In this document: piece by piece, positions 6,869 through 50,904 of the stretch
How the letters are laid out: every line of letters begins with the position of its first letter
How positions within the stretch are numbered: position 1 is the stretch's first letter
Assembly (NCBI RefSeq): GCF_900100345.1
Contig: NZ_FMTT01000004.1
Coordinates: forward strand, 62,001 to 126,000
Direction of reading: 5' to 3'
From: Paenibacillus tianmuensis
GTDB lineage: Bacteria > Bacillota > Bacilli > Paenibacillales > NBRC-103111
DNA: 64,000 nt
Notes under the pieces: model-generated
Database searches by the model: none
The model's input: the letters and a program-made list of their open reading frames with translations, nothing else
What the model was told of the DNA's origin: nothing
Translations under genes and position numbers: made by a program

Positions 6869-8343
6869 CGTCGGTCCCCCTCTCTGCCGTGAAACGCCAG
6901 CGTCTTGACGACCACGGGAATCATAATGCCCGCAATCGGTTCCCCTAAATCGATGTAGTCGCCATGCTCGACCTTGATCTGATCGATGCACACGATCTTC
7001 GTCCGTTCCTTTAACCGTTTTTCGAGCGATTGGCCGAGCGCCTTGGCGATGTCGGTATCGCAAACAACGACCATCACCCGGCTGTCCGGAAAATAGTCCG
7101 TGAAGCTTGCGGTCAACTGGTCGGCCAATCGCTGGAGCGAAGCGTAGCCGCAATGCTCGAGCCCGGCCAAAGCCAGCGCGAACGGCGGCGAAGCGTCCCG
7201 CTCGAACAAGGCTGCGCCGCTCTGCATCGTCTGCCCGACGGCCGCGGCAAGCGAGGCCGGCTGTTCGAGCAGCGAAAGCGTCAGCTCCAGCTTGCTCACC
7301 GGGAGGTTGCGGATCGGCAGCAGCGAAGGGTCCAAATGGACGGTAGCTCCGCTGATTTCCGTGCTCTGCATGCCCGCTCCGATGACCGTCGCCCGGACGG
7401 TTTGATCGGGCGCCGCCAACCGGATCGGGTATCGCGCGGCGCATGCTTTAAGCGTATGCGCCAGCAGCGGTCCGATATCGCCGTGCTTGGCGGCTTCGGC
7501 CAAGCTCTGCGGCTTCGCTTCTTCCATCAGCCGCCCGATGCCGCCGGATACCGTCCATTCTTCAATCGGCGGCACCTGCGACAGCGGAGCGCCGAGCGTC
7601 AGCTTGCGAACCGCATCGCGCTCTTCGGGAGCCGTCATGCCCGCCAAATCGTCGAGCATGGCGAGGCTCATTGCCCGGCACAGGTCCTCAAGCAGCGCAT
7701 AGCTGACGGTATGCCCCGGCTCCAGCCGGTATCCGGCAGCCGCCAGCCACGGGCGGATCGATGGCGAAACGCTCGTCACCGTTCCCCCGGCGTTCAGCTC
7801 GATCAGGCGTCCGCCGATATGATACGTCACCGTGCCGACCGCTTTTCCCCGGTAAAACACGGCCGCATTGGCCGTCCCTCCGCCGATATCAATATTGGCG
7901 ACGGCGCCGCGCACCTCCAGCGAGCGTCGGTCCGCTCCGGCGCCTTTGCCGGCAAGCAGCCCTTCGAGATCGGCCCCGGCCGTCGCGACGACAAAATCCC
8001 CGGACCGCTCGGCCAACAGGTGCACGATCCGGCGCGCGTTCGATTTCGTCGCCGTCTCGCCGGTGATGATCACCGCGCCCGATTTCAACTCTTCCGGCCG
8101 GACACCTGCCCGCTCGTATTCCTCGGTCAAAATGGCCCAGATCCGATCCGCGTCTACCTCGTCTTCGCCGAGCAGCGGCGTGCTGTGGATCGGGCTCGCG
8201 TAGATCAATTCCCGCTGTGCGATGTCAAAGCGGGGAAGACTGAGCGCGCCTGACGTCCGCACCAGCTTCAGACGGCTGACGATCATTTTGGTCGTGCTCG
8301 TGCCGATATCGATGCCTACGCTGGTAATCCATTGTGGCTCCAT
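6865..8343 (-). CDS. eutA: Ethanolamine ammonia-lyase reactivating factor (EutA)
   Basis: An actin/Hsp70-fold ATPase that exchanges damaged cobalamin in EutBC for fresh AdoCbl. The 492-residue product has the first phosphate loop GIDIGTSTTK (residues 10-19) and the second DIGGGTANAAVF near 180. ATG 8343 is chosen because it gives the family N-terminus MEPQWITSVGIDIG. A TTG at 8373 inside the end of eutV is an alternative. The stop overlaps the eutB start. Confidence 0.93.
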   Translation of the reverse strand: MEPQWITSVGIDIGTSTTKMIVSRLKLVRTSGALSLPRFDIAQRELIYASPIHSTPLLGEDEVDADRIWAILTEEYERAGVRPEELKSGAVIITGETATKSNARRIVHLLAERSGDFVVATAGADLEGLLAGKGAGADRRSLEVRGAVANIDIGGGTANAAVFYRGKAVGTVTYHIGGRLIELNAGGTVTSVSPSIRPWLAAAGYRLEPGHTVSYALLEDLCRAMSLAMLDDLAGMTAPEERDAVRKLTLGAPLSQVPPIEEWTVSGGIGRLMEEAKPQSLAEAAKHGDIGPLLAHTLKACAARYPIRLAAPDQTVRATVIGAGMQSTEISGATVHLDPSLLPIRNLPVSKLELTLSLLEQPASLAAAVGQTMQSGAALFERDASPPFALALAGLEHCGYASLQRLADQLTASFTDYFPDSRVMVVVCDTDIAKALGQSLEKRLKERTKIVCIDQIKVEHGDYIDLGEPIAGIMIPVVVKTLAFHGREGDRR

Positions 8344-8362: not shown

Positions 8363-8956
8363 TCAAGGACCAAGCCAGCGCTTCGGCCCGTCCTTCAATA
8401 TTCCATCCGCCAGCTTGATCAGCGGCATGCTTTCCGCCATCGAGACGGCGCGCATTTTCCGGTACGCTTCTTCTTCATCCAGGTCGAAGGTTTTCATGAC
8501 GATCCCTTTCGCCTTCTCGATCCGTTTCCGCTCCTCAATCGACTGCTTGAGCTGCTCCAGGTCTTTTTTGAGCGAGTCGATTCTTTCTTTCTGGCTGAGC
8601 GCAATCTCGACCGCCGGGATCAAATCCTCCTCCGACACCGGTTTGACCAAATAGGCGGCAACCCCCGCACTGCGGGCATCCTGCACAAGCTCCTTCTGGC
8701 TGTACGCCGTCAGCAGCAGGACGGACGTTTCCGTGTCATGCAGACTGCGAATGATGCGGGACGCTTTGATGCCGTTCATCACCGGCATTTTCACATCCAT
8801 GATAACTAGGTCGGGCTTGAGCGCGGCGACGAGCTCGATCGCTTCCTCGCCGTTCTTCGCTTCCCCTGCCACCGCATAACCTTCTTCCTCCAGCATTTCG
8901 CGGATATCCATTCGAATGATCGGGTCGTCATCCACGACGACGATCGAGTTCTTCAT
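8363..8956 (-). CDS. eutV: ANTAR-domain response regulator EutV
   Basis: A 197-residue RNA-binding response regulator. The receiver domain (1-120) has the acidic pair DDD, the phosphoacceptor in IMDVKMP, and conserved T and K (LLLTAYS, VKPVS). The C-terminal ANTAR domain (128-190) contains KAKGIVMKTFDLDEEEAYRKMR. In Enterococcus and Listeria, phosphorylated EutV binds paired hairpins in eut mRNA leaders and prevents termination. The leader of this operon contains a hairpin and terminator of that kind (16488-16551), so an antitermination role is well supported by context. Confidence 0.95.
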   Translation of the reverse strand: MKNSIVVVDDDPIIRMDIREMLEEEGYAVAGEAKNGEEAIELVAALKPDLVIMDVKMPVMNGIKASRIIRSLHDTETSVLLLTAYSQKELVQDARSAGVAAYLVKPVSEEDLIPAVEIALSQKERIDSLKKDLEQLKQSIEERKRIEKAKGIVMKTFDLDEEEAYRKMRAVSMAESMPLIKLADGILKDGPKRWLGP

Positions 8957-9011: not shown

Positions 9012-10457
9012 TTAGACCGGTTTCGGCTCCGCCGGGAAAAGCGGAAACGTAATCGTGACCTGTGTGCCTTCCCCGGTGGAAGCCATCTGCAGGAGGCCTC
9101 CGAGATTTTCGCGCACGAGCGTTTCCGTAATTTTCAAGCCGAGATGGCCTTTCCGGTCGGCGCTATCGCCTGCAGCGGGCAGCCCGATGCCGTTATCCGC
9201 TACCTCCATGCGGACGATCTGCCCACTGCCATACAGCGAGATCCGAATGTCTCCCTGTTCGCGGTCGACGAACGCATGTGTCACGCAATTTTGCACAAGC
9301 TCGTTGGAGACGAGCGCCAGCGTGGTGGCGATGTCGGACGGCAGCGTCAGGGTGTCCCCCGAAATGGCGATGCGGATCACTTGATCCGGCTTGGCCGTGG
9401 AGGAGACGACGTTTTTGGCGATGCGATCCAGCACATCGTTGAATTGGATCGTTTCCAGCCCGTCATAGGCCAGCATCTCGTGGATAACGGCGATGCTGTT
9501 GATGCGGTTGATGCTGTCGCGATATATTTTCTCGACCTCGTCCAGCTTCGTGCGGCGCATTTGCAGCCGGAGCAGGCTGGAAACGGTCTGCAGATTGTTT
9601 TTGACCCGATGGTGAATCTCCTTGATGACAACCGATTTAATAACAAGCTGCTTCTCTTTTTCCTTCAAGTCCGAGATGTCCCGGATCAGCATCAGCCCGA
9701 GGGCGCCCTGCTGCTGCCGGTTGATCGAGACGGTTTTCAGCTCCAGCGCGACATGCCCGATCACAAGCTCTTGACGGACGATTCCGGCTGGCGCAAGCAG
9801 CGAAGCGTGATCGAGCCTGCCGTAAAACAGCTCGACCAGACTTGAGCCTTCCGGAGCGCCGCTGTGCCCGATCTCCTGCAGCATTTTCCGGGCGCGCGGG
9901 TTCGCATAGGTCACATGCGCCTGTCCGTCGAACAGCACAATGCCCTCGTGCATGAGCGACTGGACGCTGCTTTCTGATAAAGCGACCGCAAGCAGCGTTT
10001 CGCTGAGCTGCTCCGTCGTTTCACGAAGCCGCTCCACATTTTTTTCCTGCTCGACGATCTCCGAAATGTCCTGCTCCATGATCAGCACACCGATCACGCG
10101 GCCGGTTTTGGCGCGGATCGGAACGACATTTTGCCGCATCGCGATCTGCTCCTGGGATATCCCCCGGGAACCGATGACCGGCTGGCCGGAAAGCAGGCAA
10201 AACATGACGGCCGGCTCGTTGTGCGCATAAGCGTGCAGACCGACCACCGACGAATGGTAAAGCGACGGGGCCGTTGTCGGCTTGGCCTCGGCTACGACAA
10301 GCGCCGTACCCTGATCCGCAAGCGGACAGTCGATGAACACGTCCGACTGGAACACGTCGGCGAACAATTGCAAATGTTGCGACAAATCTATAATAACTTT
10401 CACTTCTTCTACAGATAACAGGGTGCGCTCCGCGCACAGTTCGGCAATCGATGGCAT
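9012..10457 (-). CDS. eutW: Ethanolamine-sensing histidine kinase EutW
   Basis: A 481-residue cytosolic kinase with no membrane segment. The N-terminal sensor region (1-130), a central PAS-like domain (150-250) and a HisKA_2 dimerisation domain with the phosphohistidine in KEIHHRVKNNLQT (near 275-290) are followed by a HATPase with NELVQNCVTHAF and VADNGIGLP. ATG 10457 is preceded by GAGGG at 7 nt; an upstream ATG at 10490 has no ribosome site. It has its own predicted promoter, so it can be made before the operon is induced. Partner of EutV, 55 nt downstream. Confidence 0.93.
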   Translation of the reverse strand: MPSIAELCAERTLLSVEEVKVIIDLSQHLQLFADVFQSDVFIDCPLADQGTALVVAEAKPTTAPSLYHSSVVGLHAYAHNEPAVMFCLLSGQPVIGSRGISQEQIAMRQNVVPIRAKTGRVIGVLIMEQDISEIVEQEKNVERLRETTEQLSETLLAVALSESSVQSLMHEGIVLFDGQAHVTYANPRARKMLQEIGHSGAPEGSSLVELFYGRLDHASLLAPAGIVRQELVIGHVALELKTVSINRQQQGALGLMLIRDISDLKEKEKQLVIKSVVIKEIHHRVKNNLQTVSSLLRLQMRRTKLDEVEKIYRDSINRINSIAVIHEMLAYDGLETIQFNDVLDRIAKNVVSSTAKPDQVIRIAISGDTLTLPSDIATTLALVSNELVQNCVTHAFVDREQGDIRISLYGSGQIVRMEVADNGIGLPAAGDSADRKGHLGLKITETLVRENLGGLLQMASTGEGTQVTITFPLFPAEPKPV

Positions 10458-10481
10458 AAGCAATCCCTCACGACGTATTGA

Positions 10482-10509
10482 TTTATACATGCACCGATTT
10501 TATTGTCAC
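10482..10509 (-). promoter_or_regulatory. Internal promoter for eutWV
   Basis: On the minus strand GTGACA (10504-10509), 16-nt spacer, TATAAA (10482-10487), five of six matches in each hexamer. It lies in the 156-nt gap between eutP and eutW, the widest gap of the operon. Confidence 0.6.
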
Positions 10510-15806: not shown

Positions 15807-16472
15807 TTATTTCGGCTCTCGCGCGACGCTGAGAACCGCATCGGCAAAAGCGCTCGCCGCCGCGGTACAAGCGGACTGGCTGCCCGTCAGCAAACCGCCG
15901 CCGAAGTTCGTCTCCGTCGGCGGGCCGTAAAATTGGCACAGTCTGACGTCCGCCGCCTTCAATGCAGCATCCAAGCCGTACACCGCTTCGAGCGGCGGCG
16001 CGATTAAATATGCGAGCGGCTCGCCTTCGGCGATGCCCGCCACCTGGGACAAGTAGGAACCCGTTCTCGAAATGACGTGAGCGTAGTACGCATGCGTACC
16101 CTCGCTGTTCAGGGAATAAAAGCACGCGCCGTTTTCCATCAAAGCGATCGCCGCGTCCAACCCGCTTTTTACCTCGTCCGGCGTCCGGCCGCCCAGCATC
16201 CCGATAAATTCCCCCGACAGCGGGCCCGAGGCATGCGCCGACCCCGCGTAAAAGGAACGGGCATATACCACTTCCACCGCCGCTTTCTTGGTCGCCTCGT
16301 CCAGCGCCGTATAGCCGACGTCGTCGATACTCGACGTTAGTATCCCCAAACTTCGGATGTCCGGCTTCAGCTCCAGCTTCCGGGCCAGCTCCGGGTCCAC
16401 ATTCGGAATGATGCGGACGGCCAGCGGCACGGCTCGAATCGGCTGCTTCACTAGGTTCACCTCCGCTGTCAT
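15807..16472 (-). CDS. eutL: BMC trimeric shell protein EutL
   Basis: A 221-residue tandem-BMC protein that forms trimers with a gated central pore in known structures. Typical segments are VRIIPNVDPELARKL near the N-terminus, LGILTSSIDDVGYTALDEAT, AHASGPLSGEFIGML and CQFYGPPTETNFGGGLL. First gene of the operon, about 105 nt after the predicted transcription start and behind the attenuator. GGAGG precedes ATG 16472. Confidence 0.95.
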   Translation of the reverse strand: MTAEVNLVKQPIRAVPLAVRIIPNVDPELARKLELKPDIRSLGILTSSIDDVGYTALDEATKKAAVEVVYARSFYAGSAHASGPLSGEFIGMLGGRTPDEVKSGLDAAIALMENGACFYSLNSEGTHAYYAHVISRTGSYLSQVAGIAEGEPLAYLIAPPLEAVYGLDAALKAADVRLCQFYGPPTETNFGGGLLTGSQSACTAAASAFADAVLSVAREPK

Positions 16473-16487
16473 ACATCAAAAGACGAC

Positions 16488-16543
16488 AAAAAGGCGCCCC
16501 GGACCAAAGAACGTGCGAAAGCGTTCTCCAATCCAAAGGCACC
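16488..16543 (-). terminator. Leader terminator of the eut operon (attenuator)
   Basis: In the transcript GGUGCCUUUGGA (16543-16532) pairs with UCCGGGGCGCC (16503-16493) with one bulge and wobble pairs. Inside it AGAACG pairs with CGUUCU, and UUUUU follows at 16492-16488. It lies between the promoter and eutL. Its 5' arm overlaps the ANTAR hairpin at 16536-16551, so the two cannot form together. Confidence 0.7.
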
Positions 16544-16551
16544 GTTGCCTT
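16536..16551 (-). promoter_or_regulatory. ANTAR-type antitermination hairpin in the eut leader
   Basis: AAGGC-AACGGU-GCCUU: a five-pair stem with a six-base loop having A at position 1 and G at position 4, the loop rule known for EutV/NasR/AmiR substrates. EutV substrates normally consist of two such hairpins; only one fits strictly here. Confidence 0.6.
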
Positions 16552-16582
16552 CATGCTATTTTTTTATGGTTTTCATAATCGA

Positions 16583-16611
16583 ATTGTAAATCAAATCACA
16601 CGATTTCGCAA
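16583..16611 (-). promoter_or_regulatory. Promoter of the eut operon
   Basis: On the minus strand TTGCGA (16606-16611), 17-nt spacer, TACAAT (16583-16588). The predicted start is near 16576, leaving a leader of about 105 nt before eutL that contains the attenuator. Confidence 0.72.
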
Positions 16612-16642
16612 GCGCTGTCATTGAAGTAGGTCATCACAATTT

Positions 16643-47449: not shown

Positions 47450-47483
47450 CTTCAAGCATCGATACAACCGCATAACGAAATCG

Positions 47484-47648
47484 ATAAGGTGCCTTTGCGC
47501 AGAGCAAAGGGTAACAGGGAATCGGGTGCAAATCCCGAGCGGTCCCGCCACTGTATTCGGGGAGTTTTCTTTCCATGACGTCACTCGATTCACCGTCGGG
47601 GAAGGCGAAAGAACACGACGATCCGAGAGCCAGGAGACCTACCTTATG
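47484..47648 (+). ncRNA. Cobalamin riboswitch (cbiMNQO leader)
   Basis: P1 pairs ATAAGGT (47484-47490) with ACCTTAT (47642-47648). The conserved core is present: GGGTGCAAATCCC, GCGGTCCCGCCACTGT (the B12 box region) and GCCAGGAGACCT near the 3' end. It binds adenosylcobalamin or a relative. A terminator downstream (47741-47772) gives a transcriptional off-switch for cobalt uptake when B12 is plentiful. Confidence 0.95.
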
Positions 47649-47740
47649 GATGCACCCGAAGCCCTTCGCGGAAAGGAGAGGTGTACGAACATAGCCGAAC
47701 AATGACCTGCGCGCATTGTCGTTTATCGGCGTGCGTACCC

Positions 47741-50585: not shown

Positions 50586-50613
50586 GATACAGAATCACAA
50601 GTGAATATCGTGG

Positions 50614-50786
50614 GAACAGGTGCTCCTCTACGTTCGCGTATCGGAGCTTAAAAGGGAAGCCGGTGAAATACCGGCGCGGTCCCGCCACTGTAACGGAGGA
50701 GTCTTACGCCATACTTAGCCACTGATCTTCGGATTGGGAAGGCCGGCGCAAGACCATGATTCCGGAGCCAGGAGACCTGCCTGTTC
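50614..50786 (+). ncRNA. Cobalamin riboswitch (metE leader)
   Basis: P1 pairs GAACAGG (50614-50620) with CCTGTTC (50780-50786). The core contains AAGCCGGTGAAATACCGGC, GCGGTCCCGCCACTGTAACGG and GGAGCCAGGAGACCTGCC. It should turn off metE when cobalamin, and hence MetH activity, is available. Confidence 0.96.
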
Positions 50787-50858
50787 TGACAGCACTGCTT
50801 TTACCTACGGGAGATAGGGATGTGTTAAAGATGGCAGCCGCCGTGGGTATTAGACGAG

Positions 50859-50904
50859 GGGCATCTTTATCCTTTTTCGCTTCAGGGTAAAGATGCCTTT
50901 TTTT
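50859..50904 (+). terminator. Riboswitch-controlled terminator before metE
   Basis: GGCATCTTTA (50860-50869) pairs with TAAAGATGCC (50888-50897), followed by seven T. Placed between the aptamer and metE. Confidence 0.93.

Follow-up and report, generated by a model that had tools for sequence, protein, structure and literature searches.

The leader of the eut operon in the window (the whole 64,000-nucleotide stretch of Paenibacillus tianmuensis DNA analysed here) is probably a transcription switch controlled by EutV, in which, for the EutV clade of the window, a box, CAAGUGAAUAG, replaces the upstream hexaloop hairpin P1. At the level of sequence and predicted structure, P1 is absent, the box is present in the clade, the remaining hairpin and the terminator exclude each other, both folds are conserved, the leader type is associated with EutV, and a second copy of the element lies before a permease gene.

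Hairpin and terminator in the eutL leader

Along the minus strand, the leader carries the antiterminator hairpin AAGGC-[AACGGU]-GCCUU, with AAGGC at 16551-16547, the loop at 16546-16541, and GCCUU at 16540-16536. The loop AACGGU has both A1 and G4 and is closed by a C-G pair. The first-pass annotation had claimed this hairpin with its A1/G4 loop, and its sequence and coordinates on the minus strand are right. The 5' arm of the terminator, GGUGCC (16543-16538), can pair with GGCGCC (16499-16494), after which UUUUU follows (16493-16489); this arm comprises the last three loop positions (4-6) of the hairpin together with its 3' stem. The leader, the first gene, and the two regulatory genes contain the following features:

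16536-16551, minus strand: antiterminator hexaloop hairpin, P2-like (sequence, comparison, folding)
16494-16543, minus strand: intrinsic terminator stem with inner stem (folding, covariation)
16489-16493, minus strand: terminator U-run (sequence)
16583-16611, minus strand: predicted promoter TTGCGA-17-TACAAT, start expected near 16576 (predicted only, by consensus scan)
16607-16620, minus strand: cre-like sequence TGACAGCGCTTGCG overlapping the predicted -35 (sequence)
15807-16451, minus strand: eutL, first gene of the operon (profile match, TIGR04502, 365 bits)
9012-10490, minus strand: eutW, sensor histidine kinase with GAF_PdtaS and HisKA_2 (domain search)
8363-8956, minus strand: eutV, response regulator with an ANTAR domain (domain search)

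Folding of the 104-nt leader, which had been proposed as a check, gave -35.8 kcal/mol against a mean of -24.84 (SD 3.09) for 200 shuffles (z = -3.55), and an equally good fold appeared in 1 of the 200. In minimum-energy folds of the growing transcript, begun at the predicted start 16576, the hairpin is present at lengths 42-81 and the terminator from 84 onward. Equilibrium favours the terminator, as enforcing the hairpin gives -29.1 rather than -35.8 kcal/mol. A1 pairs with U6 in the growing-transcript folds and leaves a tetraloop; the open hexaloop is thus not the minimum of the unbound RNA. The only other hairpin at the leader that fits the loop rule is a weak one of three pairs inside the terminator. 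A search with 4227 Rfam models returned no family match for the leader, only chance snoRNA matches.

The hairpin–terminator overlap recurs in relatives. From a scan of EutL relatives we took the best 80 of 243 loci, supplemented by 60 EutV or EutL regions of genomes belonging to the same class. A hairpin of the form (R)GC-[AANGRY]-GC(Y) overlapping a terminator was found in most leaders among those best 80 of 243 loci, including Paenibacillus, Cohnella, Brevibacillus, Geobacillus, Anoxybacillus, Neobacillus, and others. Filtering reduced 295 raw places to 181 strict ones, 160 with TTTTT, and 101 after de-duplication; the covariation set of 82 sites comprises the 91 P1-less sites minus 9 dropped by eye as chance or dual-type. 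When 3' sides were swapped between these 82 sites, the hairpin fell from 353 of 410 paired cells to 315 ± 5 (max 329), with the two innermost pairs invariant and uninformative because they are fixed by the site definition. Likewise, the terminator fell from 677 of 738 paired cells to 578 ± 7 (max 602), and loop positions 5 and 6 against the terminator arm from 163 of 164 to 135 ± 2.7. A1, A2, and G4 are fixed in 82/82 sites, A1 and G4 by the scanner rule and A2 by the strict filter. The mutual exclusion of the two folds, as first proposed, is backed by the shared 3' half, by the switch in the growing-transcript folds, and by covariation of both structures; absence of the overlap from relatives had been named as the finding that would count against it, and the overlap is conserved.

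The hairpin string by itself is common. The strict pattern, RGCAANGRYGCY with TTTTT 15-45 nt downstream, is matched 8 times in the 6.03-Mb genome and its reversed control 9 times, which makes the bare string no rarer than expected by chance. In just 3 of the 8 matches can the 3' half pair with an arm before the T-run: the eut leader, an ethanolamine permease leader, and a boxless place within a 231-residue open frame. The inner stem of the terminator had been offered as a non-canonical second hairpin, a proposal that did not hold beyond the immediate relatives. We rejected GAG[AACGCU]UUC (16528-16517) and its variants as the missing hairpin, as they occur in only 10 of 55 eutL leaders, namely the window and its nine nearest relatives. 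Six other eutL leaders have terminator-internal hexaloops unrelated to it.

The operon has about 14 genes: eutL, microcompartment genes, eutE, pduL genes, eutP, eutW, eutV, eutA, eutB, and eutC. The claim of a single site at the head of a 14-gene operon stands, as an operon scan detected no further hexaloop–terminator place between the genes, and one at 7154 falls inside the eutA frame. Translation of eutL probably begins at GTG 16451, after GGAGGTGA, rather than at ATG 16472; the ATG precedes this ribosome site, and in most relatives the alignment begins at query residue 7-11 of the frame started at the ATG. By its likeness to the cre consensus, TGACAGCGCTTGCG at 16607-16620 (minus) is a candidate CcpA site. 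Among 81 eutL upstream regions, 15 contain the motif TGNNANCGCTTGCA; the window is not one of these strict matches. The cre-like sequence suggests carbon catabolite control added to EutV control.

The product of eutV matches PF00072 and PF03861 (receiver and ANTAR) above the cut-offs, and it is the only ANTAR match in the genome. A hexaloop with terminator stands before eutL in 54 of 67 eut operons with eutV and in 4 of 16 without (Fisher 4.6e-5, relatedness ignored), a table that excludes L081 and L094 (contig too short) and counts L108 among the 4/16 group though its eutV may be beyond the contig. Restricted to eutL-first loci, which drops L108 and 10 loci with eutL not first, the counts are 54/57 and 4/15 (Fisher 1.4e-7, again ignoring relatedness). 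We judge the independent losses of eutVW at about six or seven. The three misses despite eutV have G for A1 (L063, L087) or a poor U-run (L085). The four keepers without eutV are L070, L071, and L154, close relatives of each other, and L099 (loop [AUCGGU]); in L074 and L078 the loop is down to five bases. Some genomes without an operon eutV have an ANTAR gene elsewhere. Because the folds covary, EutV is the sole ANTAR protein found, and the hexaloop is usually gone without eutVW, EutV antitermination of the eut leader, the logic put forward in the first-pass annotation, is well supported by comparison. In the eut operons without eutVW (L074, L078, L089, L090, L095, L104, L110, L112, and L155-L157), eutA follows eutP wherever both were found.

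A linear box at the place of P1 and two EutV clades

A scan with the published dual motif returned nothing at the eutL leaders apart from a few matches (L065, L086, L088) composed of a P2-like hairpin and a chance downstream hexaloop, and the window leader lacks a P1 hexaloop. Its logic is that of an ANTAR antiterminator, but since P1 was looked for there and not found, the window leader is not filed as a dual-hexaloop target. A P1 hexaloop hairpin of at least four pairs occurs at 10 of the 101 de-duplicated sites (shuffles: mean 1.45, max 5). Nine of the ten belong to dual-type loci (L124, L126, L151, L158, L163, L165, L168, L173), which serve as the positive control for the P1 scan, and the tenth, L106, is probably due to chance. 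That the window leader has a lone hairpin is correct in so far as it holds a single rule-fitting hexaloop, the weak three-pair one aside; the one-hairpin arrangement also occurs in other operons.

At all other sites a linear motif recurs instead; in most of the window's clade it is a box, CAAGUGAAUAG, located where P1 would be, some 6 nt upstream of the one terminator-overlapping hexaloop. A box model trained on 32 sites (L114-L153; threshold 5.34) learned the consensus (A/C)AAGTGAATAN. It scored 39 of 53 independent sites above threshold, compared with a mean of 2.65 (max 7) in shuffles, 1 of 53 in a segment further upstream, and 1 of 12 at dual-hairpin sites. The box mostly lies 3-9 nt before the inner stem, with a mode of 6. 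The 34 nt before the hairpin have a mean folding z of 0.17 in the box type (n = 82) and -1.59 in the dual type (n = 11); the box-type segment is no more structured than its shuffles, and we take the box to be unpaired. The window has a degenerate version:

16556-16566, minus strand: degenerate box UAAAAAAAUAG, at the place of P1 and 6 nt upstream of the inner stem (score of only 3.7 against a threshold of 5.34)

With such a box, EutV in this organism may rely almost on the hexaloop alone. A literature search, which took in PMC3369931 apart from its supplementary tables, where an earlier listing of some of these sites is possible, returned no description of the box or of a P1-less target, and passages of PMC6620236 contain nothing on the box.

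Leaders at the 123 EutV loci fall into two types, in line with a split of EutV into two clades; the textbook pair of hexaloop hairpins is found with relatives of E. faecalis EutV. Of the 24 loci in which eutV precedes eutW, 19 belong to the dual type and 3 carry the box, and 2 are without an assigned site. The reverse order (98 loci) includes 83 box leaders, 69 above threshold and 14 weaker ones including the window, together with one locus that is mixed through a chance P1 and 14 without an assigned type, six of them clostridial. One locus with eutV and eutW apart has the box. The clostridial-type eut clusters L092, L096, L098, L100, L103, and L113, with eutW before eutV, have no hexaloop–terminator site by the scan. 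Gene order was rejected as the cause of leader type: the three eutV-first loci with a box fall inside the box clade, indicating that leader type follows the protein clade. In the EutV tree, a quick tree with several long branches and weak deep forks, the dual-type proteins group together as a single clade (SH-aLRT 100), with only one change of leader type. Protein clade and RNA type thus coincide through one historical event, which is by itself no proof of co-evolution, and an independent-contrast test of clade against leader type was uninformative because of the single change.

For E. faecalis EutV (6WSH) the score is 245 bits against a dual-type EutV and 144 bits against the window EutV; the latter is just as similar to 1s8n (147 bits). 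The RNA contacts of E. faecalis EutV, according to PMC8934654, are K143, K147, R168, M172, N173, R175, and R177. The window EutV keeps K143, K147, R168, and M172 and has A, S, and P for N173, R175, and R177. M172 is present in all 117 proteins compared, and R175 is R in 20/20 dual-clade and 59/97 other EutV proteins; position 177 is P in 20/20 dual-clade proteins too. Separately, the dual-type loci L158, L162, L163, L165, L167, L171, and L173 have extra places with a P1 of the form AACAC-[AANGRC]-GTGTT (one AGCAC), followed by AAGC-[GAAGAG]-GCTT or a near variant, in which the P2-like loop starts with G.

A second element and the box pattern in other genomes

Another contig of the same genome (C40, 148087-148159) carries a second element, CAAGUGGAUAA-4 nt-GGC-[AACGGU]-GCC-terminator. 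Its box is canonical, and it lies 384 nt upstream of a predicted ethanolamine permease gene (TIGR00908, 484 bits vs cut-off 381.75). The first-pass annotation's picture of a single site holds at the operon itself; it had overlooked the box and this second element before the permease gene. All 9 of 9 sister genomes with the permease have the element, 1.2-1.5 kb upstream of the permease gene. There it precedes a gene encoding, in L202, a lipoprotein-like protein with a weak, below-cut-off HAD-IB phosphatase match. In the window genome this gene is reduced to an 87-residue frame with the same beginning (L189:7209-7472 vs L202:2738-4090). No element was found in the 4-6 kb searched in the more distant permease genomes G417 and G419.

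The combined pattern of box, hexaloop, and T-run is matched in 11 of the 99 relatives and in 34 of 398 genomes of the class, with 0 reversed matches in either set. Of the 11 matches in relatives, 10 fall at the permease leader and 1 at an eut leader. The window eut leader is not among the matches. A EutV homologue (E < 1e-38) is encoded in 34/34 pattern genomes and in 72 of the 398 overall; the strict box pattern is missing from 38 of those 72. At eut-poor EutV loci, elements precede genes for EutH (L114) and aldehyde dehydrogenase (L114, L117, L145). Moreover, box-type elements near EutVW-like regulators in L141 and L149 precede peptidase C26 (glutamine amidotransferase-like) and aldehyde dehydrogenase genes, a pair that possibly represents another ethanolamine pathway; no eut microcompartment genes were found at these two loci.

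Proposed mechanism, rival readings, and known systems

From these comparisons we infer EutV binding, a role for the box, and ethanolamine as the signal. When no signal is present, the nascent RNA would end at the terminator. By analogy with E. faecalis, ethanolamine would lead EutW to phosphorylate EutV, and the phospho-EutV dimer would capture the AAGGC-[AACGGU]-GCCUU hairpin as it emerges. With the 3' half of the hairpin held, the terminator stem could not start, and polymerase would continue into eutL and the genes behind it, eutW and eutV among them. The box would probably replace P1 in bringing EutV to the RNA, probably either as the first EutV contact or as a P1 loop without a stem. In its wider form, the proposal seems to us about evenly balanced between true and false: a second class of ANTAR target with no recruitment hairpin, in which EutV recognises an unpaired box of 11 nt before capturing a single terminator-overlapping hexaloop that lies roughly 6 nt further downstream. 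Protein clade and RNA class would have split together, and the class would control ethanolamine genes outside eut operons, including permeases, in many Bacilli (Paenibacillus, Cohnella, Brevibacillus, Bacillaceae, and others). Points against our main explanation are the degenerate box of the window, the 4 of 16 eutV-less operons that keep the hexaloop, and the 38 of 72 EutV genomes without the strict pattern. The two leaders with eutV but G for A1, the 14 eutW-first loci of unassigned type, the single change of leader type on the tree, the need for P1 in E. faecalis (PMC3369931), and the weaker binding of a lone hairpin by NasR (PMC7496416) also count against it.

It is rather unlikely that the leader is instead an ordinary dual-hexaloop target with an overlooked P1, the box being A[AGUGAA]U with a single A-U closing pair stabilised by EutV. 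A1 and G4 do occur in 51 of 67 boxes, the closing A-U in 62 of 67, and the spacing between box and hairpin is near the published 5-12 nt linker (PMC3369931). However, such a P1 would lack a second base pair and covariation, its A1/G4 rule is broken by 16 of the 67 boxes and also by the window's box, and the upstream 34 nt fold like shuffles in the box type and better in the dual type. In E. faecalis, moreover, both P1 and the pairing of its stem are required (PMC3369931). A reading in which another agent recognises the box, as a signal for pausing or for an elongation factor, as a DNA site, or as the target of another RNA-binding protein, while EutV uses the lone hexaloop, would fit the redefinition of the minimal ANTAR target as a single hexaloop (PMC8934654), and a pause would allow EutV time for binding; we nevertheless consider it unlikely, given that all 34 full-pattern genomes encode EutV and that the distance between box and hexaloop is fixed at unlinked genes too.

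The hairpin might also be a by-product of the terminator arm, with the leader a constitutive or otherwise regulated attenuator. Small hairpins are possible in any terminator arm, the string is no rarer in the genome than in the reversed control, and four eutV-less operons keep the hexaloop. Set against this, A1, A2, and G4 are fixed throughout the 82 sites (with the filter constraints given above), the 5' arm of the hairpin covaries though the terminator has no need for that arm, and without eutV the hexaloop is usually absent, which makes this explanation highly improbable.

Our preferred reading, a EutV switch with a box in place of P1, can be set beside several described systems. Like the window, the E. 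faecalis eut leaders (Ramesh 2012, PMC3369931; Walshe 2022, PMC8934654) are accompanied by a REC-ANTAR regulator and a kinase in the operon and have an A1/G4 hexaloop closed by C-G, with a P2 that overlaps an intrinsic terminator; the window P2 resembles the published 13-nt consensus AGCAANGRRGCUY (PMC3369931). In contrast to E. faecalis, the window has a linear box for P1, one operon site instead of four, and a EutV of the other clade. The NasR/nasF leader likewise pairs an ANTAR protein with an A1/G4 hexaloop and a C-G closing pair (selected in vitro), whereas NasR is a one-component nitrate sensor with a two-hairpin target (PMC7496416). In BglG/SacY RAT antiterminators, as in the window, an alternative hairpin excludes an overlapping terminator (PMC3369931); their protein and RNA motif are unrelated to those of the window, RAT having been compared via the Rfam search only.

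The EutX/Rli55 riboswitch-sRNA sequesters EutV and, like the second element in the window genome, places EutV sites outside the eut operon (PMC5821096); unlike EutX/Rli55, the second site here has a terminator and precedes a permease gene. A search for a EutX counterpart after the seven cobalamin riboswitches of the genome, in both orientations, returned weak hexaloops in L182, L183, and L186, none of them convincing. The hexaloop at 50888 (plus strand), which follows a cobalamin riboswitch, was rejected as a counterpart, because it forms the 3' arm of an ordinary terminator that precedes the next gene. Two of the seven riboswitches lie on the plus strand of the window, at 47470-47660 (122 bits) and 50601-50798 (125 bits), the second followed by a gene that looks like metE.

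The accepted model is that ANTAR proteins need two tandem hexaloop hairpins, and the published covariance search was built on this dual motif (PMC3369931); because the dual motif was its model, a P1-less EutV clade would escape it. The EutV dimer contacts one hexaloop at a time, with one hexaloop as the minimal motif (PMC8934654), and for NasR the binding of a lone hairpin is weaker by about tenfold (PMC7496416). A P1-less clade would explain how such a one-hexaloop dimer (PMC8934654) can be recruited in nature when no second hairpin is present; it also offers a direct test of the recruitment step. In addition, with 0 reversed matches in 398 genomes, the box pattern is a specific search tool for EutV regulons beyond eut operons.
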